A stretch of 27,716 nt of DNA from positions 1-27,716 of the IMG/VR virus record IMGVR_UViG_3300031227_000322; one strand, written 5' to 3'. The notes below the pieces were generated by a model, which made no database searches, was not told the DNA's origin, and saw nothing but the letters and a program-made list of their open reading frames with translations. This document shows positions 1 to 27,716 of this stretch, one piece after another. A program made the translations under genes and the position numbers. Every line of letters starts with the position of its first letter. The first letter of the stretch is position 1. Origin of the DNA: a virus.

Positions 1-573
1 TCAGAAGTCGAATTCGCATACCTCCTTGAGTTTGTTTATTCTTGCTGGGTGGCGCAGTTTGCGAAGGGCTTTGTTTCTTATCTCACACATGCGTTGCGCA
101 CATACTCCGTGATACTGTGCGAGTTCAATGATGCTCATTCCTTCCATAAAGTGAGAGCGCAGGACACAAGCCTCTCTGTCTGTAAGAGATTCAAGAACTT
201 CGTTGATCACATCTTTTTGCTCAGAGATTTCGCATTCGTCTACAGGTGACAGTTGCTGCGTAGCGCCATTCTCCAGCTGTGCATGTTCTATGAATGCTTC
301 AATCTTATTGGATGCAATCTCGTGGTCGAGGTACTCTGGGAATATGTCAGAAGGCTCACATGCTAACGCTTTACATATACGCAATACGCTGATCTTCCAT
401 TGTCTATTCCTTTTTTGTCTTGGTGAAGACTTGAAGTTAAGCAGTTTGCCGATCACGCTTTGTGTTACACCTGTGAGCCGATGCAGGTCGGCAGCGCTGG
501 CTATGTTCATCCTCGCCATCGCTGCCTTGAGTCTGCCTTGCTGTATCTTCAGTGTTGCATGGTAGTCGCTCAT
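1..573 (-). CDS. XRE-type HTH fused to sigma-70 region 4-like HTH; transcription regulator
   Basis: A 190-residue putative DNA-binding regulator. Residues about 27-80 read as a Cro/CI (XRE) helix-turn-helix (DLHRLTGVTQSVIGKLLN, then ICKALACEPSDIFPE, the typical closing helix). Residues about 128-176 read as sigma-70 region 4 (LTDREACVLRSHFMEGMSI... followed by a recognition helix and KALRKLRHP). Each half is a familiar domain; both in one short phage protein is less common. The ATG at 573 is preceded by AAGGAG seven bases upstream and the gene ends in TGA at the window edge. It lies last in the minus-strand cluster. By inference it could redirect host RNA polymerase or repress phage promoters; no region 2 (core binding/-10 recognition) is present, so it is not a complete sigma factor. 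Confidence 0.85.
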   Translation of the reverse strand: MSDYHATLKIQQGRLKAAMARMNIASAADLHRLTGVTQSVIGKLLNFKSSPRQKRNRQWKISVLRICKALACEPSDIFPEYLDHEIASNKIEAFIEHAQLENGATQQLSPVDECEISEQKDVINEVLESLTDREACVLRSHFMEGMSIIELAQYHGVCAQRMCEIRNKALRKLRHPARINKLKEVCEFDF

Positions 574-1171: not shown

Positions 1172-1525
1172 TGGTGGACGCGGGGGGAATCGAACCCCCG
1201 TCCGTCAACAGTCCACATAAGAGTCTACGTACATATCCGGTTTAAGTCCGGCAACCAGGGGCGACAGTTTCCTGAAGCCCTCCACCAGCACGTTTATCTG
1301 TCTGTGCAGACATTCGTTGCGTTAGCCTGTCAACGGTCAGGGGTCTCAGTGGTGCGAGTCGTACTGCCGGATACTACTGATATCTTTCCGGGTTCCTAGA
1401 CGACTTTAAGCCGCCATGTCGAGAGCTTCATCAGTTCTCTGTTTCCGGGTGTTTAACGAGGCCAACCGGAGTCCTCGGTACGCATCTTATGTTTTGTCTG
1501 TCGGCGTCGAAACCATGTCGCGCCC
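1172..1525 (-). ncRNA. ssrA: tmRNA (transfer-messenger RNA), phage-encoded
   Basis: A complete 354-nt tmRNA. The ends pair as a seven-base acceptor stem (5' GGGCGCG with 3' CGCGTCC, giving G-U at the third pair, the alanine-tRNA identity signal), followed by ACCA with an encoded CCA. The T arm is GGGGG-TTCGATT-CCCCC, and the 5' part holds the conserved GGTTTCGACG of tmRNA D-loops. A long P2 helix joins the halves: CGACAG/CTGTTG, ACATAAGA/TCTTATGT and TGCGTAC/GTACGTA pair in order. Pseudoknot 1 is visible (CGAGG/CCTCG with TCCGG/CCGGA). The tag frame after it ends ...DEALDMAA and TAA; the resume codon is probably GAT or the preceding ACT, so the tag is (T)DEALDMAA. The role would be to release stalled ribosomes with host SmpB and mark nascent chains for proteolysis. 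It sits between phage genes read in the same direction, so it is cargo rather than an attachment site. Confidence 0.95.
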
Positions 1526-4369: not shown

Positions 4370-4602
4370 ACTACCCCCTCCCCTTGCGCCTTGATCAGCG
4401 CAAGCTGCACTGCGCTTAGCTCATCGATGGCTGAGCCCATGCGTCGGATTGCATCGTCTATGCTGTGGCAATCCTCTTCAAGCTCGTTCGCTATGAACTG
4501 AGCGAGGGTGTCTCCAACTGCTGCGCCTGGGTCAGTGATGATTAGCTCGATCTCCCAGCCATCGCCATACACTCCGTTACTGATTTCCTGGTACTTGTTC
4601 AT
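4366..4602 (-). CDS. Hypothetical acidic protein (78 aa)
   Basis: A 78-residue protein starting MNKYQEISNGVYGDGWEIEL. An in-frame ATG lies upstream at 4626, but AAGGAGACAGC precedes the ATG at 4602, which also overlaps the PP-loop gene's stop by ATGA. The C-terminal half is helical and acidic (DTLAQFIANELEEDCHSIDDAIRRM). No family recognised. Confidence 0.72.
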   Translation of the reverse strand: MNKYQEISNGVYGDGWEIELIITDPGAAVGDTLAQFIANELEEDCHSIDDAIRRMGSAIDELSAVQLALIKAQGEGVV

Positions 4603-5528
4603 GCTGTCTCCTTGCTTGGTTCGCATGGCACATTGATGTAGGCAAGCACTTCGCGCAAGCCTAGCTTATCCATGCAGTATGCCCATTGCTTTGGGTGCGT
4701 GCGGTACATTCGCTGGAATCTATTCTCTCCCTTCTCCATGTGTACGCCGAACATGCAGAACATGCAGCCGGTGCGATCATATCCCATGCTGTACACGGCA
4801 GGCAGCTCGATGCTGTGTAGCGATGCATATTCTCTGACATGGTGCTCCATCCATGTGGACATAGGAGATGAGTGTGGGCGCTTAGTCTTGAAGGCGTTGC
4901 ATCCTTCGTTCTGCACCCACTTCTGCTGACGCTGGAAGCTCTCGCATGTCATCACTCCGTCGATACGTTTCCTTCCAGTTTTCTTCTCGTATTGAGTAGC
5001 TGGCCTCTTCTTCATCACGTCACAGCATGTAGCTGATACCTCGAATGGAGCCTCTCTTAGGTACAACCATTTCTTTGGCACCTTGCCTGCTGGGTGAGTC
5101 TTTCCACTGCGAGGGTGCAGCCCTGTAAGTCGTAGTGTGCGCAGCCCTTCGCTTTTCGTGTGTCGTAGCTCATGTACCTGATGTGCTACACGCTTACTGA
5201 CGACAGGATAGCCATACTTCTCAAGCGTTTCCTTGAACGTCAGTTTAGGCTTTAGGAGCACGACGTTCTCACCTCTATCTCTAGCGTCGGTCACTGCCTT
5301 TCTCACTGATGGAAACTCCAAGCCTGTATCACAGAACACTGACGGTATGCTATCGCCCCAGCGTTGGCGAATGATATGCCTCAGCACAGTGGAGTCCCTT
5401 CCTCCACTCCATGCTAGGTACACCGCTCCGTTCCAATGCATTAGCCACTCTGCTATCTTGCGCTCAGTCCTTGCTACTTGGCTATCCAAGCTAAGGCTTT
5501 GCAGTTGCTGTAGTTGCCATACGTCCAT
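4599..5528 (-). CDS. PAPS/APS-reductase-fold PP-loop ATPase with [4Fe-4S] cysteine motif
   Basis: About 309 residues. The nucleotide-binding PP-loop is AWSGGRDSTVL (SGGRDS at 41-46), followed by VFCDTGLEFP, both hallmarks of the PAPS reductase family. Four cysteines have the spacing of the iron-sulfur motif of assimilatory APS reductases and DndC-like proteins: CC at 168-169, then CMFC about 86 residues later (255-258). The catalytic ECGLH-type C-terminus of true sulfonucleotide reductases is absent; the tail is NVPCEPSKETA. It is therefore better regarded as a PP-loop enzyme of unknown reaction, possibly adding sulfur to nucleic acid as DndC does. Three candidate ATGs lie at 5549, 5531 and 5528; GAGGAGGA suits 5528 best (four-base spacing), and this codon touches the upstream stop. 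Neighbours include a cytosine methylase and an SF2 helicase. Confidence 0.82.
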   Translation of the reverse strand: MDVWQLQQLQSLSLDSQVARTERKIAEWLMHWNGAVYLAWSGGRDSTVLRHIIRQRWGDSIPSVFCDTGLEFPSVRKAVTDARDRGENVVLLKPKLTFKETLEKYGYPVVSKRVAHQVHELRHTKSEGLRTLRLTGLHPRSGKTHPAGKVPKKWLYLREAPFEVSATCCDVMKKRPATQYEKKTGRKRIDGVMTCESFQRQQKWVQNEGCNAFKTKRPHSSPMSTWMEHHVREYASLHSIELPAVYSMGYDRTGCMFCMFGVHMEKGENRFQRMYRTHPKQWAYCMDKLGLREVLAYINVPCEPSKETA

Positions 5529-5932
5529 CATTCCTCCTCTATGCAGCACTTCAATGCATGCAGTGTGTTGATTGCCCGAAGCAGGGTTGCTTCCTCTTCG
5601 CTGGCTACGCGGTAAGCTCTATCCAATCCGCCATGCCAGTAAACGTAGTATGCCCCAGCATCCCCTTCTTCCTCGCATCCTTCCTTGTAGTCTGTACCGT
5701 TTATGTAGTTGTCTAAGTCCTCCTCGGTTACTACTTGCCTGTTCTGCTCATCCCACCAAGCCAAGTTGCCGATGTCTCCATCGTCATTGCTTAGCTTCAA
5801 CGCTTCCATGCGTGCTATGAGCGTGTCAAATATGATAGGCACGGTTTCTACTGTCACCTTTCTGGCGAGCTTGTCATCGCTCTGGCAATGCGCCATACCT
5901 ACGAGCGTGCAGCATATATCATTGATCTTCAT
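5528..5932 (-). CDS. Hypothetical acidic protein (134 aa)
   Basis: A 134-residue acidic protein starting MKINDICCTLVGMAHCQSDD. It has a helical middle (VETVPIIFDTLIARMEALKL), a Trp/Tyr-containing section (AYYVYWHGGLDRAYRVASEEEATLLRAINTLHAL, here given in parts) and ends ...CCIEEE. No recognised family. Its ATG overlaps the stop of the preceding small gene by ATGA, and its last codons supply the SD for the PP-loop gene. Confidence 0.75.
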   Translation of the reverse strand: MKINDICCTLVGMAHCQSDDKLARKVTVETVPIIFDTLIARMEALKLSNDDGDIGNLAWWDEQNRQVVTEEDLDNYINGTDYKEGCEEEGDAGAYYVYWHGGLDRAYRVASEEEATLLRAINTLHALKCCIEEE

Positions 5933-13745: not shown

Positions 13746-13909
13746 ACTGGCTCATCCTCGCCTTAGCAAAGCATATGCTCGCCCGACGCCTCAAGCGCAT
13801 GGGCGGCACCTTGCTCGGCATCACAGCTTTCAAGGGAGCTACTACGCTTGGCATGGTCAAGGATATACACAAGCATCTGGACGTAGTAGAGAAAGAGGAG
13901 AGATCATGA
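13742..13909 (+). CDS. Small amphipathic protein (55 aa)
   Basis: A 55-residue frame starting MNWLILALAKHMLARRLKRM, then GGTLLGITAFKGATTLGMVK and an acidic end. The first 12 residues and GGTLLGITAF are hydrophobic, so it may associate with membrane. AAGGAGACACC precedes the ATG, which overlaps the upstream stop. No family recognised. Confidence 0.66.
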   Translation: MNWLILALAKHMLARRLKRMGGTLLGITAFKGATTLGMVKDIHKHLDVVEKEERS

Positions 13910-13980
13910 GAACAATAACGCACATCGCCCTGCTCGCCCTCGCATTAGCCATAGTCTTGGCGCTTATGGGGGTCGCATAA
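13906..13980 (+). CDS. 24-residue single-span membrane peptide
   Basis: MRTITHIALLALALAIVLAL then MGVA: one hydrophobic helix with Arg/His near the start. GAGGAGAGATC precedes the ATG, the ATG overlaps the upstream stop (ATGA) and the stop overlaps the next start (TAATG). The tight overlaps make a real gene likely despite its size. It could be a holin-like or regulatory membrane peptide (inference). Confidence 0.6.
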   Translation: MRTITHIALLALALAIVLALMGVA

Positions 13981-14437: not shown

Positions 14438-15531
14438 CCGTTCATATAAGGGCTCAGACTGATATCTATGACAGATATAAGAATGGCGAGCCCTCGGAAT
14501 GTGACACCTATGCTGAGGAATGGTTGCATCGCAAGGCTATAAATTCGATTGAAGATACCGACCCATGGAAACTCAAACACAATATGATAGCCCCATTCAA
14601 ACGCAAAGACAGGATGACAAATTCCCAGCACGCCTTCATCCGGCGCTTGCTTGGCATACCGAACAACGGCCTTGTCCCTCGCTGCAAGCACAAGGTATCC
14701 AGCTTCGTGAAGCGATGCGAAGAGCTTGGCGATTTCTCACACAGCAGCAAGCGCCACATATGCAGGCAATGCAGGTGTAAAAAAGCTGCTGGCTTTGGAA
14801 CCAAGGGAGATTGGTATGGGATAGGCGAGAACACAGGGCATTATGGCTGTGGTCTATGCAGGGAGCATGAAGCGACTATGCCAAGGCATAAAGCCCTGGA
14901 GATCGCTGCGTGGGATATGTGGACGATCAGATACTATGGAGAGCAAATGATAGATGTAACAGGTTATGAAGATAATGTATCGCTAGAGGCAACGAATGCT
15001 TCGATAAGGATCGAGGCACGCAAGGAGCTTGTTGTTGTTTACGACAGCCTCAAGGAGTTGACTGAGAACCTTGTACCGAAGGACACGCTGAAGATTGTCG
15101 CAGTCTTGGAGCAGCTTGAAGAAACTGTAAAACAAATGCAGTTCGTTGACCCTGAACAGGGTGAGAAGATCATTCAGGTGCTTCAGTCAAAGATTCTTGA
15201 GCGCACCAATCTCACTGAATACCAGAAGGGCATTCTAGTTCCACTCAGTACAAAGACTGAGATCGAGCTGAAGAATGCCACAGCCAAGACGGTAAGCGGT
15301 ATCAAGATCAATGATTTTAAGCTTGAATCAAATAGCTATCTGCACAAGGATGAACTGGACAAGAGGATGGATATGCACCTTTCTATTCAGAAAAGAGCGC
15401 TTCAGAAGCATCGGGAACTGATGGCCAACTTTAAGGATGGCGATCAAGATCCTGACGAAGTCGCGTATCAATGGGCGGTAGGCGAATTGATTCTAGTCTG
15501 GGACAATGCGCAAACAGGAGCTAAGAAATAA
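14434..15531 (+). CDS. Cys/His-rich protein upstream of the large terminase; possible small terminase subunit
   Basis: A 365-residue protein. The N-terminal half has a zinc-binding pattern: CKH (84-86), C95, H108-C110-x2-C113-x-C115 and CGLC-x2-H (139-145). The C-terminal half is a long charged helical region (VVVYDSLKELTENLVPKDTL, VLEQLEETVKQMQFVDPEQG) suitable for oligomerisation. In tailed phages the gene before terL is usually terS, whose product recognises packaging sites, and helical C-termini are typical; zinc-ribbon N-termini are unusual for it. The assignment rests on position. ATGA overlap upstream, TAATG overlap with the terminase gene. Confidence 0.45.
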   Translation: MTVHIRAQTDIYDRYKNGEPSECDTYAEEWLHRKAINSIEDTDPWKLKHNMIAPFKRKDRMTNSQHAFIRRLLGIPNNGLVPRCKHKVSSFVKRCEELGDFSHSSKRHICRQCRCKKAAGFGTKGDWYGIGENTGHYGCGLCREHEATMPRHKALEIAAWDMWTIRYYGEQMIDVTGYEDNVSLEATNASIRIEARKELVVVYDSLKELTENLVPKDTLKIVAVLEQLEETVKQMQFVDPEQGEKIIQVLQSKILERTNLTEYQKGILVPLSTKTEIELKNATAKTVSGIKINDFKLESNSYLHKDELDKRMDMHLSIQKRALQKHRELMANFKDGDQDPDEVAYQWAVGELILVWDNAQTGAKK

Positions 15532-17474
15532 TGGAGATCCTCTCCAGCGTTGCTAAGCATATCAGAGATGCTGCAGATCTGAAACATGACAAGCATTTAT
15601 TTTACATGTTCGAGCCTTGGAATGTTGCGAAGCGAAGCGCCGAGATCAAGCGCAAAGCCATCGAGGATGATGCCCAGATATACACAGAGGAGTTCGTTGA
15701 CGTATTCGGCACTGATCCGCACCCATTCCAGACCGGCTACTTCCAGAGCACCAAGAAGATCAGAATACTCCTCGCCGGAAGCTCGACAGGTAAATCAATC
15801 TGCCCCTTGGTAGAGACTGGCATCATGGTTAGCGGTGAACTACCTTATACTTTCAGGTACGACGAAGGTGTGGATACAGGAGTTCCGAGAGTAATATCAA
15901 AAGAGAATATCAGGCGCTTCGGGCGAATAGACTCCAGCAATGGAAAGATCATCGACTACAATGTTAAGCCAAAGCAGGAATCGTCATGGCAGGAATGGAA
16001 TTGCGGAAACATAATGGGAGCTGGGCGGTATCCTCAGGAGAAGATATCAGAGGCTGGCAAGCAGATATGGATAGCCACTATAGCTGAATCGATCAAGAAG
16101 TTCTGGTGGCCCATGCTTGCCAATCCAGAAACAAGAATCCTGCCCGACGCATTCATCGATACGAGCAAGGGCAACAACGGGTACAACATCTCCACCAACA
16201 CAGTCCACTGCATTCGCGGTATGGAGATCTTTATTCTTTCGTTTGAGCAGGGCCACAAGAAATTTGAATCAGTGCGAGCCCATGCCATCGTAGAGGATGA
16301 AGAAACCACAACGCCTGAGCTATTTGCCTCAGCTCAAGAACATGCTCCTGAAGGATACGTCACAATAGCCATGACTCCTCTTGAAGGCATAACGTGGTCA
16401 AGAAAGTTAGTGTTCAATAAGGGTGTTGATGCTGATCGCTTCCACGCCACACAGTACGACTCTCCATATCAGGACAATAAGGAGATCGACAGGAGAAGGA
16501 CTACCTATGCCAAGTGGATCAGGCAGTCGCGTTGCTGGGGCTTATACTCCGAGCAGAGCGGTGAGCCATACTTCAACCGAGCCAAGCTCAACGTGTGGCT
16601 ACAGGCTTACTCAATGAACTATGATCTCGTATCGTTCACACCAAAATCTCAATGGTTCAAAATGAAAGGCAATACACGTATTTCATCCCTCCCTGGGCTT
16701 ATCGACACTGACGTACATAAAAATCCAGCATACGAAAACGAAGAAGCAACTGTTGCATGGAGGATGTATGAAGATCGACTGCCTGGGGTGGGGTATATTC
16801 TCGCAGCAGACGCAGCAGAAGGCGCTGAGATCCCAGAAGAAGCCGGAGATATCAACGCAGCCATGGTGATGCGGCTACCAATAGGCAAAGAGGAACACGC
16901 AAAGATCGTATGCACTATCCGCAGCACCTTGCCTACCAAAGCCTTCGCCAAGGTATGCGCCTTCGCTCTACGCTACTACAACAATGCTATGCTTGCTGCT
17001 GAGTCAGGGCAGGGTGCAGAGAACAAGGCGTTCGAGCTGGAGGTGGAGGATTGGCCTTACTTGTACATGTCAACTGTTACGAGGGATGCTACAGGCACGC
17101 CAAGGCAGAAGCCTGGCTTTGTGATGAAGTCCAATCAGAGACAGGCTATCTTCAAGGAAATCGAAGAATACATCGGAGAGTTCGATGAAGATGAATATCC
17201 TCACATTCCAGACCGGCCTTTGCTGAAAGAATTGGCTGCTGCAGTAAAGGGAAAGAAGGGCAGATGCGATCATGTGAAACGAGGATCTCTTGACACAGGC
17301 ATATGTTTTGGTATATTATTGCACGTAATTAAGCACGATTCCGATCAGATAAAATGCAATTACTTTCCACCGCCAAAGCAAAACAGACGCATCGATCCGC
17401 GTAGGCTCGCCCCTCAAGTGCCTTGCGGATTAGGTATGCTAGGTATGAAGGAGGCTCTCAATGGCAGTTCGTAA
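15531..17474 (+). CDS. terL: Terminase large subunit
   Basis: A 647-residue packaging ATPase-nuclease. Walker A is AGSSTGKS (82-89), Walker B is IVEDEE (253-258) with the catalytic Glu following the Asp, and motif III/coupling is TIAMTPLEG (278-286). The RNase H-like nuclease domain shows LAADAAEG (D427), MLAAESGQG (E491) and KRGSLDTGI (D588), the three expected acidic positions. It cuts concatemeric DNA and pumps it into the prohead through the portal. Length is within the range for large terminases. The next gene's ATG lies 14 bases before this gene's stop and its SD is GGAGG within terL codons. Order terminase-portal-scaffold-capsid is canonical. Confidence 0.93.
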   Translation: MEILSSVAKHIRDAADLKHDKHLFYMFEPWNVAKRSAEIKRKAIEDDAQIYTEEFVDVFGTDPHPFQTGYFQSTKKIRILLAGSSTGKSICPLVETGIMVSGELPYTFRYDEGVDTGVPRVISKENIRRFGRIDSSNGKIIDYNVKPKQESSWQEWNCGNIMGAGRYPQEKISEAGKQIWIATIAESIKKFWWPMLANPETRILPDAFIDTSKGNNGYNISTNTVHCIRGMEIFILSFEQGHKKFESVRAHAIVEDEETTTPELFASAQEHAPEGYVTIAMTPLEGITWSRKLVFNKGVDADRFHATQYDSPYQDNKEIDRRRTTYAKWIRQSRCWGLYSEQSGEPYFNRAKLNVWLQAYSMNYDLVSFTPKSQWFKMKGNTRISSLPGLIDTDVHKNPAYENEEATVAWRMYEDRLPGVGYILAADAAEGAEIPEEAGDINAAMVMRLPIGKEEHAKIVCTIRSTLPTKAFAKVCAFALRYYNNAMLAAESGQGAENKAFELEVEDWPYLYMSTVTRDATGTPRQKPGFVMKSNQRQAIFKEIEEYIGEFDEDEYPHIPDRPLLKELAAAVKGKKGRCDHVKRGSLDTGICFGILLHVIKHDSDQIKCNYFPPPKQNRRIDPRRLAPQVPCGLGMLGMKEALNGSS

Positions 17475-19299
17475 GCCCAGAACATCGACAGGTGACAAAT
17501 TAGTTGACGAGCTAATGGCGCAGTTTGACTTCGCCTTCGGTATAGCTCTTGAAGCATTCGAGCGCATGGAGAGGGTAAACAGGGCATATGGGAACAAGAT
17601 CAACACAGTGCAATGGCCAACGATCTCGGAGATATCTGTTCCACTCACGTTCATTTCTGTAGAAGAACAACTCCCATTTGCTATGAAGTATCTCTTCCCT
17701 CGCAACAGATGGATCGAGCTTATGCCAACGAAGGGAGTAATGGCCACTGACAGGATCGAGTTGATCGAGGACGATTTGAGATACACCCTTCTAACAGAGA
17801 TGCAGGTCCACGATGGAGTGCATAGATCTCTCAAGGACTGCTACAAGTACGGAGTTGGATACGGAGTCATCGACACAGAATGGATCTTACCGGAAGAGCG
17901 CATAGTCAATGAGTTGCTCGTTGGCGGTGAGCGGGTAGATTCGATTCCCACTCTAGGCACCGGTAAGCCTGTGCAGCAAGTCAGCTATGAATACCTTCCA
18001 CCGATCTGCGTAATTCCTATGCCTGATGGAGCGAACGTAGAGCGACCAAACAAAGCCTCTGCTCACTTCGTAGTGAAGCTATATCCAGAATTAAAGTTTC
18101 GGGACATGTATGCCAAGGCAAAGGATGCTGGCAGTCCGCTCGCTGGTGATGTAGACGAGATAGTTCTGGAAGCCAGAAGCCTCAACTTCGATCAGCGCAT
18201 GATCCCTATCAATATTATCGCAGCATTGGCCAACATCAACCTAGCCAAGACCAACGATGCCGACAAGCGAATCCCTGTCATAGTCCCTGTAATAAAATAT
18301 TATGGCGACAACCATCATGTGTGGATGGCAAACGGGAAGGTCAAAATATGGGAGCAGAAGAACAAGTATCAATCCATGCGTAGTGATCTTATCAAATGGT
18401 CTGGATGGCCGGATGGAAACGAATGGTTCCCAATGGGCGTAACCGAAGCTTCTGAGCGATTAGCGTGGGGAACGAACGTCTGGTATAACTCGCTGATCGA
18501 TCTCGCTATGTATCATCTCAATCCTACGCGAGTGCGCAATACGGAGATGATCGACCCGAACAAGCACATAGGCAGAGGCCCAGGCTCCGACGTTGCTGTG
18601 AAAGGCGATGCGACCAAAGCCATAAGCTACATGAAGTTGCCTGAATTCCCGCAGCAGCTTGGCGCTATGGGCGAAACGCTTCAGCATTTCCATGGCATGG
18701 CCAATGCCCAGCCATCAAGCGTGAGCAACGCCTCACCTGGCCTTGTGCGGGGCGGCACCAACGCGCTTGAGACATTGCTTGCCACGACTACCGGAAGGCA
18801 GCTGTTGGCCGGTATAGCGTGCAAGACAGGCGGCATGCAGCCATTGGTGGAGAAGACACTCATCAAACGTCAGCTTTTGGCCGACAAGGAAGGCAGGCCA
18901 TTCGTTGAGAAGTCATACAATGCCGACACCGGAGCACGCGAGTACCATGAGAGGAACGTGACCCTCGATGACTTGAGACATGTATTCAGGGTTTATTTGA
19001 ACCTCCCTGCAGCCCGTATGAACTCAGCAGCATCCTTCGCTGAGCGTTCAGGATACTTCGACAGGGCTCAGCAGAAGCCTGAGTTGTTCGATCAGCGTAA
19101 ACTATACGAGCATCTCACGGACGATTACGAGCTGGTACGAGGCACAATGAAGCCAATCAGCGTGGTCGAGGAGCGCGAGGAGCGTGGTGCTGAGGCAGCT
19201 TTGCAGGTGCGCGAGGCTGAAGGCGTACCTGCTGGAGCACCATCAACGCAGGGTGATCAGGCGCTGGCCGGCGCAGCAGCAATAAGCGGAGAAGCATAA
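17461..19299 (+). CDS. Portal protein
   Basis: A 612-residue protein of portal size directly after terL. Features that fit podovirus-type portals: N-terminal NTVQWPTISEISVPLTFISV with a VEEQLPFAMKYLFPRNRW segment, a central beta/alpha body (VIKYYGDNHHVWMANGKVKI), a helical LLATTTGRQLL segment, and an acidic, low-complexity C-terminal tail (VVEEREERGAEAALQVREAE). It forms the dodecameric DNA channel at a head vertex and serves as the docking site for the terminase. GAAGGAGGCTC precedes the ATG. The assignment rests on size, order and general pattern, not a single motif. Confidence 0.82.
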   Translation: MAVRKPRTSTGDKLVDELMAQFDFAFGIALEAFERMERVNRAYGNKINTVQWPTISEISVPLTFISVEEQLPFAMKYLFPRNRWIELMPTKGVMATDRIELIEDDLRYTLLTEMQVHDGVHRSLKDCYKYGVGYGVIDTEWILPEERIVNELLVGGERVDSIPTLGTGKPVQQVSYEYLPPICVIPMPDGANVERPNKASAHFVVKLYPELKFRDMYAKAKDAGSPLAGDVDEIVLEARSLNFDQRMIPINIIAALANINLAKTNDADKRIPVIVPVIKYYGDNHHVWMANGKVKIWEQKNKYQSMRSDLIKWSGWPDGNEWFPMGVTEASERLAWGTNVWYNSLIDLAMYHLNPTRVRNTEMIDPNKHIGRGPGSDVAVKGDATKAISYMKLPEFPQQLGAMGETLQHFHGMANAQPSSVSNASPGLVRGGTNALETLLATTTGRQLLAGIACKTGGMQPLVEKTLIKRQLLADKEGRPFVEKSYNADTGAREYHERNVTLDDLRHVFRVYLNLPAARMNSAASFAERSGYFDRAQQKPELFDQRKLYEHLTDDYELVRGTMKPISVVEEREERGAEAALQVREAEGVPAGAPSTQGDQALAGAAAISGEA

Positions 19300-20916: not shown

Positions 20917-22143
20917 ATGTATAGAGTAACATTGCCTTACACCACTCGGACTACCGGAGTCGATATCTTCGACACTGATAATCTGTTTCGGCAGAGGGAG
21001 ATTGATAGTCAGATCGATATGCTCAACAAGGATGATGGCACCTTCTTGAAGGCGCTGGACTTGTGGAGCACGAAGGAACCTGTCAGTCAAGCCCTTTACT
21101 ATTGGGTCGAAGATGAAATGCTTCCGATCCACACGCAGGTCAACCTCGCTGCAGGTTATCTTGCGACGGACACCTCGATAGTAGTTGATGACGCGAAACT
21201 GTTCATCGTCAACACTGAAGTGCATATCACGCGAACACTGGAGAATATGCGGGTCACGGCTGTAAATTACACTACCAATACCATCACGGTAACTCGTGGC
21301 TGGAACGGAAGTGTTACGGCAGCTCTCGTTGATAACGATATTCTCGTTTCCGGTATTGCGCATCTTGCAGAACTCGCAGACGCAAACGAAGGAACTGGCC
21401 GTATCCCTGGAACAGAGAAGTACAACTTCATCTCCAGGTTTTCGGAGTCCTTCAAGATATCGGACATGGAAGCTGTAGCCGCGAAGTTTGAAACCGGCAT
21501 CGGCAAAGTCGCCACTATTGAGTGGGAAGTTGCCAACAAGATGTTCGAGATCAAGCGTAAGGTCAACAAGGCGCTTATCTTCCAGCATCGCGGAACAACC
21601 ACTACCGGCGATGGAACGATCTACTGTTCGCAGGGATTCGTTCATTACATCAACGACAACGTGCTGACGCTTGGCGAAAAGAACGATTCGCTTACATGGC
21701 CCATTCTTTCTGAATGGCTGGACACCATGTTCAATCCGACTGCAAGCTCAAGTGAGAAGCTTTGCAACTCCGGTAACAACCTCTTCGGGGCTGTCAACCG
21801 TATGCAACGCGACATGGGTACTCCTCCGAAGAAGTATTACAGTCCTGAGTTGGCAACAGACATGATGGACGTGTATACAGAAGAGGGCAACATGGTCAAG
21901 TTTGCACGCGACAAGCATGGCTTCCCTGCTGCTGAAGGACTGGCAGGATGGGGAACGGTCATCGATATGGGTCACGTTTACAAGCGTGAGTACACGAACG
22001 AGCCCATGACATGGCGGCAGGGCATCCAGGCTGGAGTATCTCACTTCAGGCAGGACGAGTACTTCGGTAGTTTCTCCCTCGAACTTCGGCACCCTGAGTG
22101 TCACGGTTTCGTTAGAGGCGCTGCTCCGTCGATAATAGATTAA
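20917..22143 (+). CDS. Major capsid protein, DUF5309/SU10-like
   Basis: A 408-residue protein with the pattern of DUF5309 (SU10-type) capsid proteins: an N-terminal DIFDTDNLFRQREIDSQIDM with LTKA-type T-loop features, a WVEDEMLPIHTQVNLAAGYL stretch, a beta module with VTAVNYTTNTITVTRGWNGS, then a helical FEIKRKVNKALIF core and a C-terminal LELRHPECHG. The HK97-type fold is inferred. AAGGATACGTC precedes the ATG. It is normally the most abundant gene product in the virion. Confidence 0.8.
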   Translation: MYRVTLPYTTRTTGVDIFDTDNLFRQREIDSQIDMLNKDDGTFLKALDLWSTKEPVSQALYYWVEDEMLPIHTQVNLAAGYLATDTSIVVDDAKLFIVNTEVHITRTLENMRVTAVNYTTNTITVTRGWNGSVTAALVDNDILVSGIAHLAELADANEGTGRIPGTEKYNFISRFSESFKISDMEAVAAKFETGIGKVATIEWEVANKMFEIKRKVNKALIFQHRGTTTTGDGTIYCSQGFVHYINDNVLTLGEKNDSLTWPILSEWLDTMFNPTASSSEKLCNSGNNLFGAVNRMQRDMGTPPKKYYSPELATDMMDVYTEEGNMVKFARDKHGFPAAEGLAGWGTVIDMGHVYKREYTNEPMTWRQGIQAGVSHFRQDEYFGSFSLELRHPECHGFVRGAAPSIID

Positions 22144-22197: not shown

Positions 22198-22737
22198 ATG
22201 CAAACAGAAAAGACAGATAAACCAACGCCCAAAGCTTCGGCAAAGATCGCAGCTGAGGGTACGGAAAAGGACGAAGCAATGGAGTTGCCCAAGGAAGATA
22301 AGAACATTGTCACATGGCAGTTCAGATACAGGAATTATCGAACTATTCTTCCTTATGTCGATGAAGCAGCGGGACTTACTCCGACTAGAAAGCGGTCAAA
22401 CGCCGTGATGAAAGCTCGGAATTATCGCCGCGATCTCGACCTTCGCATACCTGAAGAGAAGAAGATGCACAAAGCGCTGTTGAAAGACTCGCGCCGAGAT
22501 CTTGACTTCTGGCTGCTTAGCGATGCAAAGCACAAGCAGAAGGCAGCGGAGCAAGGGCAGAACTTGAAGAAGCTTCTGTCTATGCCTGAGCCTCAGCTGA
22601 GGGGGATGCTGAGCGGAGATGAAATGCTGGCTGTTGGTTTGAATCCTGCTACTGCTGATGTTTATGACATAGCGATGGCAGTCATTACGAGCTACAACAA
22701 AACACTGGCTAGACAGCCAGAGAAGGAAAACGAATGA
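22198..22737 (+). CDS. Putative head-tail connector/adaptor protein (179 aa)
   Basis: A 179-residue protein with a Lys/Pro-rich, probably flexible N-terminus (KTDKPTPKASAKIAAEGTEK), then helical blocks (VMKARNYRRDLDLRIPEEKK; RRDLDFWLLSDAKHKQKAAE) and an end (AMAVITSYNKTLARQPEKENE, last residues). Its position right after the capsid gene fits an adaptor or head-completion protein, but nothing in the sequence is diagnostic. GGAG precedes the ATG; ATGA overlap with the next gene. Confidence 0.45.
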   Translation: MQTEKTDKPTPKASAKIAAEGTEKDEAMELPKEDKNIVTWQFRYRNYRTILPYVDEAAGLTPTRKRSNAVMKARNYRRDLDLRIPEEKKMHKALLKDSRRDLDFWLLSDAKHKQKAAEQGQNLKKLLSMPEPQLRGMLSGDEMLAVGLNPATADVYDIAMAVITSYNKTLARQPEKENE

Positions 22738-23807
22738 GAAAATATATATGCATAGGATTGATGTTCGCTCTTGTAATCGCTCCGGCGTTTGCAGGGAACG
22801 TGGAAGAGGTGACTACGCGGCAGGGATTCACTACCCTCTACGAGGTGAAGGATTCTCTGAATGCGTTGGCTACGGGCGGCACGCTTACGAACGGGCTGGA
22901 CGTTACCGGCACGGTTGGTGCTGATATAGTTAAGTCGGACGCAGTGACGGAGGATACGGCTGGAGAGGGTGTCACTGTAGATGTGCTAACTCGCGTCAAG
23001 GATGGCTCCGTGCTGTATAAAGGCACTGTTGGCACCGATGCGAGGGCTGGATGGCCGATTGCATTCCCTCCTGGAAAATACTCGGTGTTTAAGGATGACT
23101 TCTATACCGCTGGGTACGTGGCTGATGCTGGAACTCATACGAATAACTCGCCTAAGTTCTCGGAAGATGCCGATGCAGGGGCATGGCTGGTTACGGTTGT
23201 GGACGGCGGTTCTGACAATGGAGAAAGCATCATTGTATCCGACACAGGGCGTGGAGGAATCCTTGCGATTAAGTGCAACGACGCCAAAGACGATGGAAAT
23301 AGTATCCAGAAGAACGGCATGGGAATGGAACTCGTTAGTGGCAAGAAGTTGTGGTTTGAAACCAAGTTCGCGATTGAAGATGCAGACACAAATGCTGTGT
23401 TTATCGGACTGTCGATTGCTGACACCGCTATGACTGCGGGGCTGTCGGATGACCATATCGGTTTCTACATGACCGGACTTGAAGATGCTACACTGTACAT
23501 TGACTGTGAGTATAACGGCACTAATTGTAACTTTGCAACTACTACTACGATGGCTGACAGTCATGCGACGTTTACGAATATGACCACCGCTGGATTCTAC
23601 TACGATGGAGCCAATGCGCTTTATACGTGGGTGAACGGAAACAACACCGGCATGGCAATGAGTACAACCATAACTCACACCACGACATTGGTAACAAACC
23701 TGCTGCCGAAAGCAACAGATATGAGTACGATCATGGAGATCATCAGCAAAGACACCGCCGCAGATGATCTGTACGTTGACTATATCTGGTACGCAGTGGA
23801 ACTATAA
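22734..23807 (+). CDS. Signal-peptide-bearing fibre-like protein with lectin-like C-terminal part (357 aa)
   Basis: A 357-residue protein starting with a Sec signal peptide: MRKYICIGLMFALVIAPAFA, with AFA as -3 to -1, predicted to be cut before G21. Residues 22-66 form a module (TRQGFTTLYEVKDSLNALAT, GGTLTNGLDVTGT) that is also present in the next gene. After about 100 the sequence is beta-rich and resembles a jelly-roll/lectin-like domain (DDFYTAGYVADAGT, LYIDCEYNGTNC, LYVDYIWYAVEL). It overlaps the upstream gene by ATGA, so it is part of the structural operon. A signal peptide in a phage structural operon is unusual. Confidence 0.7.
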   Translation: MRKYICIGLMFALVIAPAFAGNVEEVTTRQGFTTLYEVKDSLNALATGGTLTNGLDVTGTVGADIVKSDAVTEDTAGEGVTVDVLTRVKDGSVLYKGTVGTDARAGWPIAFPPGKYSVFKDDFYTAGYVADAGTHTNNSPKFSEDADAGAWLVTVVDGGSDNGESIIVSDTGRGGILAIKCNDAKDDGNSIQKNGMGMELVSGKKLWFETKFAIEDADTNAVFIGLSIADTAMTAGLSDDHIGFYMTGLEDATLYIDCEYNGTNCNFATTTTMADSHATFTNMTTAGFYYDGANALYTWVNGNNTGMAMSTTITHTTTLVTNLLPKATDMSTIMEIISKDTAADDLYVDYIWYAVEL

Positions 23808-23819
23808 GGAGAAGGGATA

Positions 23820-24980
23820 ATGAAAAAGTATGCCTGCATAGGTCTGATGTTCGTTTTAGCAATCACTTTCGTTTTTGCTGAGAACGTGACTGAAGTACAA
23901 ACACGGCAGGGATACATAACTCTCTATGAGTTACAAGACTCCCTGAACGCCTTGGCTGCTGGCGGTACGTTGACTAACGGGTTGAATATTACCGGCACGC
24001 TGGATGCTGATGTAGTGGATACGGAGGAATTGGACCTTCAGGGCGTATTCACTGCAGTCAGCACCAATGGCGCAACGACCAACGTGATTGTAGACGCTGA
24101 CGGAGAGCTTGCGGTTGACCCCGACTTGGCGACAGAGACGAATCGTGCTCAAGTAGCAGAGGGTGCATTAGGCGATCGGATTGACCTTGAAACGCTTGAA
24201 GTTGTGGCAGGACGCGGCGGCGCAGTATCCAATAGCGCAATCACGTTCGACGCGGCAGCGGAGAGAACGAACACTTATGGCGGATATTTGTCTATTCTCG
24301 GCCTCAACGTGCAATCAGGATTAAGCAGTACTGCAGGTGGTTCGGGTGCGACAGCTTTAGGAGCTTTCTGTGAGGCTAGTGGTGCCTTTGCTCCAACGGC
24401 ATTTGGATACCACACCGAGGCTAGCGGTGCGAATTCAACCGCTGGTGGCTTTCGAGCTAAGGCCATCCATGACGGCGCATTCGCTATGGCCGATGGAGAG
24501 AGTGCTGACTTCTATAGCACGGCAAACAATCAGGTGCGGATGCGCTTCGCCAACGGATACGACCTTACAGGTGGTCCGATCAGCGGCGATGGTTCAGGTC
24601 TATCAAACCTTTCCGTATTCGCATCGGTGACGATAGAGACAGCATCGGTGTCGGGAACACAGGCTACTATAACAGTGACATGCAAGGACTTGGGTGGAAA
24701 TACGCTTGCCGCCGCCAAGACGTTTCCGTTTTGGTTCACGACTGCTGCGGTCAGCACCACCCCGTCCACGAACGGGATAGAAAGTTGGAGCTATGTAGCT
24801 CATGGCAACGTGGAGACGTACCTGAATTATACTACGTGTCCACAATACATAGGAACCACTCATACGGATGGAACGATGGACTTTCTCGTTACATCAGAGA
24901 ATGATGGTTTCACAAACCGATTCGTAGTGGAGGGTCCGAATGGAAGCTACACGAATCTGGTAGTTACATATACCAACTAA
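23820..24980 (+). CDS. Signal-peptide-bearing YadA-like repeat fibre/adhesin (386 aa)
   Basis: A 386-residue protein starting with a signal peptide (MKKYACIGLMFVLAITFVFA, VFA at -3 to -1). Residues 22-66 repeat the module of the previous gene (TRQGYITLYELQDSLNALAA, GGTLTNGLNITGT). Residues about 168-228 read as a trimeric-autotransporter YadA-head repeat (STAGGSGATALGAFCEASGA, FAPTAFGYHTEASGANSTAG), a left-handed beta roll used for adhesion. Then NNQVRMRFANGYDL and GDGSGLSNLS, common in phage fibres, and a beta-rich end. AAGGAGAAGGGATA precedes the ATG. Likely a host-binding fibre that trimerises. Chain export to the envelope is inferred from the signal peptide. Confidence 0.75.
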   Translation: MKKYACIGLMFVLAITFVFAENVTEVQTRQGYITLYELQDSLNALAAGGTLTNGLNITGTLDADVVDTEELDLQGVFTAVSTNGATTNVIVDADGELAVDPDLATETNRAQVAEGALGDRIDLETLEVVAGRGGAVSNSAITFDAAAERTNTYGGYLSILGLNVQSGLSSTAGGSGATALGAFCEASGAFAPTAFGYHTEASGANSTAGGFRAKAIHDGAFAMADGESADFYSTANNQVRMRFANGYDLTGGPISGDGSGLSNLSVFASVTIETASVSGTQATITVTCKDLGGNTLAAAKTFPFWFTTAAVSTTPSTNGIESWSYVAHGNVETYLNYTTCPQYIGTTHTDGTMDFLVTSENDGFTNRFVVEGPNGSYTNLVVTYTN

Positions 24981-25027
24981 GAGCAGAAATAAGCAACGAG
25001 TAAATGAGCAAACAAGGAGAATGACCA

Positions 25028-25849
25028 ATGAGAGACAGAGCAAATGATTCACGCCCAATCCGCACAGCTTTCCTGGACTTTTCGGATAGCAAAAACGGAT
25101 TGCTGAGGTTGAAGTGGAACGATATCGAGAAGGATGCTGAGAATCCTAATCCATATGCAACTGTGACCATCGATCACAATGCAAGCGGCGGCACCAAGCT
25201 GATCATACTGCTTAACATCGGAGCCTCGGCTACCGACTACGAGCAGTACCAGTTCTCTGCTTATGCTACTGGCATAGCAGACCCTGGCGGCATCGATGCT
25301 ACGCCTACGCATACGCAGGTGCTGACGCTTGGCGCGTTGGTTGATGCGCTGAATGCGCTTCACGACAGCGACATCGGCATCTATGCAGCGCGTCTGCATG
25401 GGCCTGCTGATTACTCGCTGGACACTGATGACTTCATCACTCAGGCTGTAGCACGGATCAGTCCGTTCTTCACTGAGATGCTGTACAAGGATGCCAGCGA
25501 GGTGAAGACTGCTGCATTCAGGCTTGGCGTGCCGGAAGATGCAAACGGCAAAGTCGGACGTGGCCGCATCGAAATCGTGCGAATCGTCGCATTCGCTAAC
25601 TCGAACAGCGCGACGGACTGCGTGTTCAAGATGTCCTACGATCCCACTGAGGGGTCTGGAGGGGCAGACGACGAGGTTGAGCTGGCCTACAGTCGCTATG
25701 TGCCTGACGCGGCCATCACGGAGCTGTATGACTTCCATGAGGCTCCCCCTGTCGAAAAGGGACCGATCCTCGTGGAGCTGACCGCGACGACCACGCTCAC
25801 CGAAGACACCACGTATGCTCGCATCGCATACCGCAACGCCGAATACTAA
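25028..25849 (+). CDS. Structural-region protein of unknown function (273 aa)
   Basis: A 273-residue protein without a signal peptide. The N-terminus is charged (MRDRANDSRPIRTAFLDFSD), then beta-rich (YATVTIDHNASGGTKLIILL, NIGASATDYEQYQFSAYATG) with a helical middle (ARISPFFTEMLYKDASEVKT) and a beta-rich end (LVELTATTTLTEDTTYARIA). AAGGAGA precedes the start at 25028; an ATG at 25021 in another frame ends after eight codons. It lies among fibre genes, so a tail or decoration role is inferred. Confidence 0.6.
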   Translation: MRDRANDSRPIRTAFLDFSDSKNGLLRLKWNDIEKDAENPNPYATVTIDHNASGGTKLIILLNIGASATDYEQYQFSAYATGIADPGGIDATPTHTQVLTLGALVDALNALHDSDIGIYAARLHGPADYSLDTDDFITQAVARISPFFTEMLYKDASEVKTAAFRLGVPEDANGKVGRGRIEIVRIVAFANSNSATDCVFKMSYDPTEGSGGADDEVELAYSRYVPDAAITELYDFHEAPPVEKGPILVELTATTTLTEDTTYARIAYRNAEY

Positions 25850-25865
25850 GCTACAAAGCTACCTG

Positions 25866-25894
25866 GCCGGAGCGGAGCAAGCCTTCGCTCCGGC
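25866..25894 (+). terminator. Strong GC-rich hairpin after the 25028-25849 gene
   Basis: GCCGGAGCG (25866-25874) and CGCTCCGGC (25886-25894) form a perfect nine-pair stem with an 11-base loop, 17 bases after the stop. No T-run follows, so it may be a partial terminator or a processing site between structural genes. Confidence 0.6.
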
Positions 25895-25912
25895 TAAACT
25901 TGGAGGATTTAC

Positions 25913-26413
25913 ATGAAACGCATCGCACTCTCTTTATCTTTGATTCTCCTGATGGCTATGCAATGCCATGGCGAAGGCCGGCAATATGAAGATCCGCTGA
26001 CTCCTGGCGAGCTATATTTCGTGCAGGTGCAGCAGATTATTGGCGGATCTTTCGTATGGACGAACGAGCTAACGTACATGTGGTATCTGGACAAGGCCGT
26101 GGTCCTTTCTCCGAATACGAATTGCACAAGCGTAAATGCTGCCTATCTGGTTGTAAAGCATACTGATGTTCTGGAGACTCCGTATACAGTTGTTACGAAT
26201 GATTTTGGAAACATCCAGACGAACTATCTGCATGGCATCACAGGAACCACTGATACGTACATGACGAATCTCATCACCAGTGCTTCGTGGAGTAACTCTT
26301 GTTCGGCAAGATCTGAAATCACACCGGAGGACGACTACATTCAGAGAGGCGATATACTGAGATTTACTTTCAGTAATACGAACATCTTTCTGAAGCTCAC
26401 CGGAAGGAGGTAG
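25913..26413 (+). CDS. Secreted small structural-region protein (166 aa)
   Basis: A 166-residue protein with an N-terminal signal peptide (MKRIALSLSLILLMAMQCHG; possible cut after CHG or a weak lipobox at C18, although AMQC does not fit the usual lipobox). The mature part is Thr/Asn/Tyr-rich and beta-like (VQQIIGGSFVWTNELTYMWY; TCSARSEITPEDDY-type end). GGAGG precedes the ATG. Not recognised. Confidence 0.6.
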   Translation: MKRIALSLSLILLMAMQCHGEGRQYEDPLTPGELYFVQVQQIIGGSFVWTNELTYMWYLDKAVVLSPNTNCTSVNAAYLVVKHTDVLETPYTVVTNDFGNIQTNYLHGITGTTDTYMTNLITSASWSNSCSARSEITPEDDYIQRGDILRFTFSNTNIFLKLTGRR

Positions 26414-26415
26414 AC

Positions 26416-27716
26416 ATGCGCTCCTTCATCATCGCATCACTCACAGCTATGCTGTGCCTTAGCTCCTTCGGGGCTACGAACACCATCCCTCGCCTGAAGG
26501 ATCAGACTGCCAACTTCATGCTGCCAAGCGATGTGTCGCAATGGCATATCAAGGCTAAGCAAAACAACGTAGGCATAGTGCAGAGATTCTACACGGTCAA
26601 CGGATCGAATGTGCTCAACCTTGCGAATAAGACAGTCGTATTGAAGCGAGGCAAGAATGACAATGATCCAAGCATGGCTACGCTTACCGGCGTAGTGTCT
26701 ACCACCTACGTTGATTTCACTATGACTGCTGCGTTCCTGGCTCAGCCTACAGCTATTCCGTGGTATAGCGTTATCATGGTTACTGATACATCTGCGCCGA
26801 CATATCAGGTGTCGCAACCCAAGGGGCAAATCACAGTAAAGAATGCTCCAGAGACAGACAATTCAGACATGGTTACTTCCAGGCGTATTGACTTTCAGAA
26901 CAAGACCTACGCTTCGGTAACCAACCTTGGTCCTTATATATTTTCTGGAGGCGGGGCAACAGTTACAGAGGATTCTGATGGCAGGGCATTGGTAAGCATC
27001 TCATCTGCCGGAGCCGCTGGAACTTGGGCAAGCAACGTAGTCATAGCAGTTAGCAACGAGGTAGACGTACTCCAGACCAACACAGCCACAGCAGCTCAGG
27101 GAGCCAACGCCGATACAGCCTACGGATGGGGCAACCATGCCACGAACGGCTACGGCACGGGCGATGTATCCCAAGCCTACGTTGATGCTCAGGACATCGT
27201 TGTAAGCAATGGCGTCATAGCACAGATTGGCGGCAGTAACTATCTCACGGCGGAGGCTGACACCTTCCAGACCATGCTGAATCGTGGCAAGACCGCAACG
27301 AATGATGATGTGCGGGTGGGATCAATCGGGATCGTGAGTGATGTTAAAGGCAGCTTTATGAATTGGGGCTATGCAGACGCAACTGAAAGCACGATGACAT
27401 TGGAATGGAATGAGTCAGAGCAACGAGAGTTCTATCTTGCCTTTGACCGACTCGGGGTATACATGTCTACTGGTGCAGTATTCTTAGTAAATAATCCGAT
27501 TGAAACAGGGGTGGAACAAGGGTTGGCAACGGGAACTTATTATCGTGGCGCGATGAATGTTCGGTCAGCAGACATCCGTTACGTCAACACCAACGAAGCC
27601 GACAGCATCACAAGTCCTATGATTGTGGACGGAACTATCGCGGCAGCTGACATCGACACAAACTCGCTTGATGTTACAGGGAAGATGTCTACGGATGTGG
27701 AACGGATTGCCAGCAC
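26416..27716 (+). CDS. Partial tail-fibre/baseplate-like protein with signal peptide (runs off window)
   Basis: An open frame of 433 codons with no stop to the window end. It starts MRSFIIASLTAMLCLSSFGA, a signal peptide with SFG or FGA before the cut, preceded by GGAAGGAGGTAGAC. The N-terminal part (FMLPSDVSQWHIKAKQNNVG, KTVVLKRGKNDNDPSM, YSVIMVTDTSAPTYQV) resembles a BppU-type baseplate/fibre N-terminal beta domain, then a coiled-coil-like section (VVIAVSNEVDVLQTNTATAA) and repeated short motifs (AADIDTNSLDVTGKMSTD) typical of fibres. The 3' end, which normally binds the host, is missing from the window. Confidence 0.65.
   Translation, partial: MRSFIIASLTAMLCLSSFGATNTIPRLKDQTANFMLPSDVSQWHIKAKQNNVGIVQRFYTVNGSNVLNLANKTVVLKRGKNDNDPSMATLTGVVSTTYVDFTMTAAFLAQPTAIPWYSVIMVTDTSAPTYQVSQPKGQITVKNAPETDNSDMVTSRRIDFQNKTYASVTNLGPYIFSGGGATVTEDSDGRALVSISSAGAAGTWASNVVIAVSNEVDVLQTNTATAAQGANADTAYGWGNHATNGYGTGDVSQAYVDAQDIVVSNGVIAQIGGSNYLTAEADTFQTMLNRGKTATNDDVRVGSIGIVSDVKGSFMNWGYADATESTMTLEWNESEQREFYLAFDRLGVYMSTGAVFLVNNPIETGVEQGLATGTYYRGAMNVRSADIRYVNTNEADSITSPMIVDGTIAAADIDTNSLDVTGKMSTDVERIAS

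Follow-up and report, generated by a model that had tools for sequence, protein, structure and literature searches.

It is generally taken that tailed phages synthesise their structural proteins in the cytoplasm and put them together there. Four genes lying downstream of a phage capsid gene open with what read as export signals, and the question they raise is whether these N-termini are genuine signals and where the proteins that carry them would act. The window, which is the whole stretch of DNA analysed here, is the entire IMG/VR virus record IMGVR_UViG_3300031227_000322 (27,716 bases), and genes are named below by the position of their first base. The reading preferred here, at a probability of roughly 0.55, is that 22734, 23820, 25913 and 26416 encode Sec-exported phage adhesin- or fibre-type proteins that would act outside the cytoplasm.

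Genomic context

The record is probably a fragment of a larger genome, given that its last gene (26416) runs past the record end. Genes left of ~13 kb lie on the minus strand, and those from ~13.3 kb on lie on the plus strand. The minus-strand left arm encodes a helicase, a DNA methyltransferase, a PAPS reductase and an HTH/sigma-like regulator. Phage P8625 also has a gene like the PAPS reductase-like gene (4599–5549, minus), and the protein encoded at 1–573 (minus), with HTH_26 (Cro/C1-type) and sigma-70 region 4 domains, is possibly a repressor/sigma-like fusion regulator. A tmRNA gene lies at 1172–1525 (minus; Rfam RF00023, 121.9 bits, E=1.7e-47; ARAGORN agrees); its tag peptide is odd, with an end that is not ALAA, and its acceptor stem is able to form G3-U70. 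Phage tmRNAs are already known from 402 phages, or 2.3% of surveyed genomes (PMC9004378). On the plus strand, a 24-codon ORF after a Shine-Dalgarno (SD) site (13908–13979; MRTITHIALLALALAIVLALMGVA) is a possible small membrane protein.

The capsid protein matches Pfam SU10_MCP (Table 1), which identifies a tailed phage, and itself has no leader. The large ORFs at 15531–17474 and 17461–19299 are presumed from size and position to encode the terminase and portal; neither could be matched credibly to anything in Pfam, PHROGs, NCBIfam or 50,697 phage records, and judged by these two the head module is very divergent. No prohead protease was recognised in it by family profile scans, including Pfam. 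The ATGA overlap with the preceding gene ties the first signal gene, 22734, to the phage head operon, and from their position within the structural operon the signal-bearing genes may be expressed late. A chimeric assembly was considered and is unlikely, with the start of 22734 overlapping the preceding stop and its body being a phage-type domain.

Table 1. Features of the capsid-proximal region; hyphens within residue motifs mark predicted cleavage sites.
Feature	Coordinates	Strand	Remarks
Major capsid protein (context)	20917–22143	+	Pfam SU10_MCP, 60.8 bits, E=2e-16
179-aa gene	22198–22737	+	stop overlaps start of 22734 (ATGA)
Gene 22734, 357 aa	22734–23807	+	signal, short N-terminal module, C-terminal concanavalin A-like lectin domain (by model)
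Putative Sec/SPI signal, 22734	22734–22793	+	20 aa, AFA-GN; AAGGA at 22723–22727
N-terminal module, copy 1	22734–22931	+	signal plus ~46 aa; common to 23820
Lectin-like domain, residues 111–356	23064–23801	+	homologues near major capsid genes; AF2 beta-sandwich, Foldseek
Gene 23820, 386 aa	23820–24980	+	signal, N-terminal module, YadA-head-like fibre segment
Putative Sec/SPI signal, 23820	23820–23879	+	20 aa, VFA-EN; AAGGAG at 23806–23811
N-terminal module, copy 2	23820–24017	+	signal plus ~46 aa; common to 22734
YadA-head-like segment, residues 167–252	24318–24575	+	similarity to P8625 tail fibre and cellular proteins
Intervening gene 25028, 273 aa	25028–25849	+	without signal peptide; strict caller negative
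Gene 25913, 166 aa	25913–26413	+	no family match
Putative Sec/SPI signal, 25913	25913–25972	+	20 aa, CHG-EG; GGAGG at 25902–25906
Gene 26416, tail-fibre-like	26416–27714	+	phrog_9729; runs off record
Putative Sec/SPI signal, 26416	26416–26475	+	19–20 aa, SFG-AT or FGA-TN; AAGGAGG at 26404–26410

Signal-like N-termini

The original prediction placed Sec-type signal peptides, all 20 residues long, at the start of the four genes. Each gene begins exactly at the predicted position, with an ATG after a good SD sequence, and all four N-termini look like those of Sec/signal peptidase I (SPI) substrates, in which positive charge at the beginning is followed by a hydrophobic core and by small residues at -3 and -1 (4/4 by a strict caller). 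The equal length holds for three, which end at residue 20, and not strictly for 26416, which ends at residue 19 or 20 and gives the weakest of the four calls. The predicted leaders and the residues following cleavage are MRKYICIGLMFALVIAPAFA then GN for 22734, MKKYACIGLMFVLAITFVFA then EN for 23820, MKRIALSLSLILLMAMQCHG then EG for 25913, and MRSFIIASLTAMLCLSSFG then A and TN for 26416, where cleavage is predicted on either side of the A.

No twin-arginine (RR) Tat motif occurs in the four N-termini. The lipobox [LVI][ASTVI][GAS]C is likewise absent, as AMQC in 25913 does not fit because Q precedes the Cys, AMLC in 26416 does not fit, and no other Cys lies near a cleavage site. The +1 residues (G, E, E and A/T) do not follow the SPI Q rule of Bacteroidota, with Gln at +1. 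Neither an outer-membrane anchor nor a dedicated secretion partner is visible.

The segments might instead stay uncleaved, as membrane anchors tethering fibres to the inner membrane at assembly or as membrane-penetrating N-termini at infection. The hydrophobic cores (8-residue mean 2.2–3.1) and the maximum 19-residue hydropathy of 22734 and 23820 (2.15 and 2.07) would suit such a role. However, the cores are short, a small-x-small motif follows each at the right distance, and 25913 and 26416 (1.33 and 1.62 by the 19-residue measure) are weak as transmembrane helices, so that anchoring is judged unlikely.

Excess over chance and a shared module

Signals were called with a home-made, rule-based caller in a strict and a loose form. 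The strict form was positive for four of the 14 right-arm genes and negative for the other ten, compared with 0/486 non-redundant phage ORFs with SD and ATG from the comparison loci; cellular ORFs were positive in 10/71 cases. The binomial probability is ~2e-8, or ~2e-6 with the two paralogues counted once, and shuffling residues 2–60 left a called signal in 0.2–0.8% of cases. The loose form was positive for 14/1061 phage ORFs, the majority of which lacked an SD site, and for two of the 52 P8625 proteins, against none in the SignalP run of that phage’s authors. This excess bears out the earlier view that the signals are not a chance hit. The accompanying view, that an entire gene set coherently shares them, is not supported, since a signal is missing from 25028 within the run and two of the four belong to copies of one module. 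With this module shared by 22734 and 23820, the independent signal-bearing N-termini number three.

The first ~66 residues of 22734 and 23820 are 70% identical, and the DNA of the module is 72% identical over 197 bp, after which identity is lost abruptly; past the shared module the bodies are unrelated. One signal-bearing module on two unrelated bodies is what would be expected of a targeting module. Within the signal parts, 18 of 60 nucleotides and 12 codons differ (five silently, seven with a change of residue). For this one paralogue pair, random substitution gave seven or fewer residue changes in 1.3–1.6% of trials and left a callable signal in 46% of stop-free trials. The few residue changes, together with this rate of retention, make the signal appear mildly conserved between the paralogues, which is weak evidence that it has been kept by selection.

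A further reading, that the signal-like N-termini are accidental and have no targeting function, draws on the descent of two of the four from one event and on the rule-based nature of the prediction. Set against the probability that persists when the paralogues are counted once, and against the mild conservation between them, such an accident is very improbable.

Bodies behind the signals

The C-terminal 246 residues of 22734 form a domain also found in Caulobacter phage GB2A, in ct7ZZ929 and in many IMG/VR phages, where, in the cases whose neighbours were checked, its gene mostly adjoins or closely follows a capsid gene. An AlphaFold model of this part (AF2, 23 sequences) is a beta-sandwich, much of it predicted with good confidence. 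Foldseek matched the model to SO2946, legume-type lectins and GH16 enzymes, with probability 1.00 to SO2946 and lectins and TM scores normalised by target of about 0.5–0.6. By the modelled fold, the body is a concanavalin A-like lectin domain, and its carbohydrate binding is putative.

Over 86 aa, gene 23820 is 48% identical to tail fibre gp22 of P8625, a stronger similarity than that to Pfam YadA_head, which falls below the cut-off of 25 bits (15.2 bits, E=0.029). Pfam and NCBIfam scans found no C-terminal YadA beta-barrel anchor in 23820. Residues 223–424 of 26416 match phrog_9729 ‘tail fiber protein’ (E=6.9e-9), and its C-terminus lies beyond the record; single-sequence AlphaFold of its N-terminus was useless (pLDDT 31). 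No family was found for 25913 in PHROGs, Pfam, NCBIfam or INPHARED, nor did it match in Zixibacteria genomes. Searches of PDB sequences yielded no credible match. By similarity, phage-structural kinship is thus indicated for the bodies of 22734 and 23820, with a family match for that of 26416.

These bodies also bear on whether the genes are cargo (morons) from secreted host adhesins that have kept host signals and have no role in the phage particle. Cellular proteins with the YadA-head segment of 23820 are mostly signal-bearing (9/12 called), which speaks for such an origin and also for the export reading preferred here. On the other hand, the lectin body of 22734 is a phage-type domain whose phage homologues carry no signal and are encoded close to the capsid gene, and 22734 is unmatched in 392 Planctomycetota genomes; the genes sit within the structural operon; and 26416 belongs by match to a phage tail-fibre family. 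A moron origin is therefore quite unlikely.

Relatives without signals

The original prediction stated that phage structural proteins normally lack such peptides, and the homologous phage proteins compared here bear this out. No signal was called in 82 lectin-domain homologues with complete N-termini (0/82, with many loci near-duplicates and the independent cases fewer), nearly all of which begin directly at the domain. The tail fibre of P8625 and the fibre of L088 are also without a signal, and SignalP gave none for P8625 in the original description (PMC4642752). Of 20 Planctomycetota loci around capsid homologues, none has an SPI-type signal on the genes between the capsid gene and the large gene that resembles a tail gene; in several of them a small gene at the far end carries a lipoprotein-type signal, and in two an SPI-type signal is called on a gene that is not part of this run. 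The signals are thus explained neither by the lectin family nor by the fibre family, nor by the relatives of the capsid protein.

Related phages sharing the signal pattern were searched for in IMG/VR and INPHARED, and none was found. Single- and two-sequence IMG/VR scans with the capsid protein, 26416, 22734 and the N-terminal module gave no signal-bearing relative, and nothing in INPHARED matched 25913, 26416, the presumed terminase, the presumed portal or the module. The suggestion that the host is unusual is weakened by the verrucomicrobial phage P8625, which shares the fibre segment and has no signals. Homologues of the capsid protein occur more often in Planctomycetota (37/294) than in either Bacteroidota (2/296) or Zixibacteria (1/129), a weak hint at a planctomycetal host; 26416 is unmatched in Planctomycetota genomes.

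A separate observation concerns a gene run conserved in many Planctomycetota genomes after an SU10-like capsid gene (loci L122, L124, L125 and L127–L132). It encodes proteins of about 220, 436, 375 and 1200–1500 aa, often followed by a small lipoprotein, and could be a widespread prophage or gene-transfer-agent-like element.

Proposed role outside the cytoplasm

Under the preferred reading, the four proteins would be made as Sec precursors, the 19–20-residue N-termini would direct them across the inner membrane, and signal peptidase I would take off the leader. The mature lectin-like domain, YadA-head-like fibre, tail-fibre-like protein and small 25913 product would then act outside the cytoplasm. 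Either they would attach to glycans on the surface of the infected cell and mask receptors, countering superinfection and re-adsorption to debris, or they would stay in the envelope until lysis and then become part of the virions. The signal-like N-termini, more frequent than chance allows, the kinship of the bodies and the signal-less homologues suggest export, cleavage and this site of action, while virion membership of the window’s proteins is suggested by homologues.

Alternatively, these could be virion proteins whose 20-residue leader is an assembly propeptide, merely resembling an export signal and cut in the cytoplasm by a host or phage peptidase. Phage P22 gp7 loses 20 N-terminal residues to host OpdA (PMC8402733), and capsid signals of Porphyromonas gingivalis phages are thought to be removed by the prohead protease (PMC10367356). 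Nonetheless, the head module has no recognised prohead protease, the capsid protein is without a leader, and three unrelated proteins show the complete n-h-c pattern together with a small residue at -1, which leaves a propeptide doubtful.

A bolder proposal is that completion of the virion takes place outside the cytoplasm. Sec would export the fibre and decoration proteins, which would mature in the periplasm and be attached only at or after lysis, by means of a transferable signal-bearing attachment module that takes different receptor-binding bodies; this is regarded as rather doubtful. A run of intact export signals on lectin- and fibre-type genes whose homologues are signal-less would point either to adhesins that work outside the cell, in receptor masking or debris binding, or to a virion partly built in the periplasm.

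Comparison with known systems

Superinfection-exclusion lipoproteins of the T5 Llp type are phage-encoded, exported and block receptors. Unlike these, the proteins described here have no lipobox, and their genes lie in a structural operon. Salmonella phage P22 gp7 likewise has a 20-residue leader, removed from a virion protein, and its deletion costs little (PMC8402733); however, the peptidase is host OpdA and gp7 is an ejection protein, whereas the proteins here are adhesin-type. P8625 gp22 resembles 23820 in its YadA-head-like segment (PMC4642752), yet only 23820 has a signal. The lectin-like proteins of GB2A, ct7ZZ929 and IMG/VR phages have the same C-terminal domain as 22734 and are encoded at a comparable place with respect to the capsid gene; nearly all differ in starting at the domain, where 22734 has a signal.

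The likeness to the ‘Nixviridae’ of P. gingivalis lies in tailed-phage genes with predicted Sec signals, which there were assigned to major capsid proteins and to five proteins of unknown function fitting the host’s Q rule (PMC10367356). In that group the structural signal is on the capsid protein, whereas here the capsid protein has none, the signals are on lectin/fibre-type and unmatched proteins, and the predicted mature N-termini do not begin with Q. Signal peptides on phage proteins, including a structural protein, are therefore already known. A direct precedent for tail-fibre signal peptides was not found in the open-access subset of the literature, and nor was the feature that appears new here, a cluster of signals on lectin/fibre-type proteins whose homologues are signal-less.
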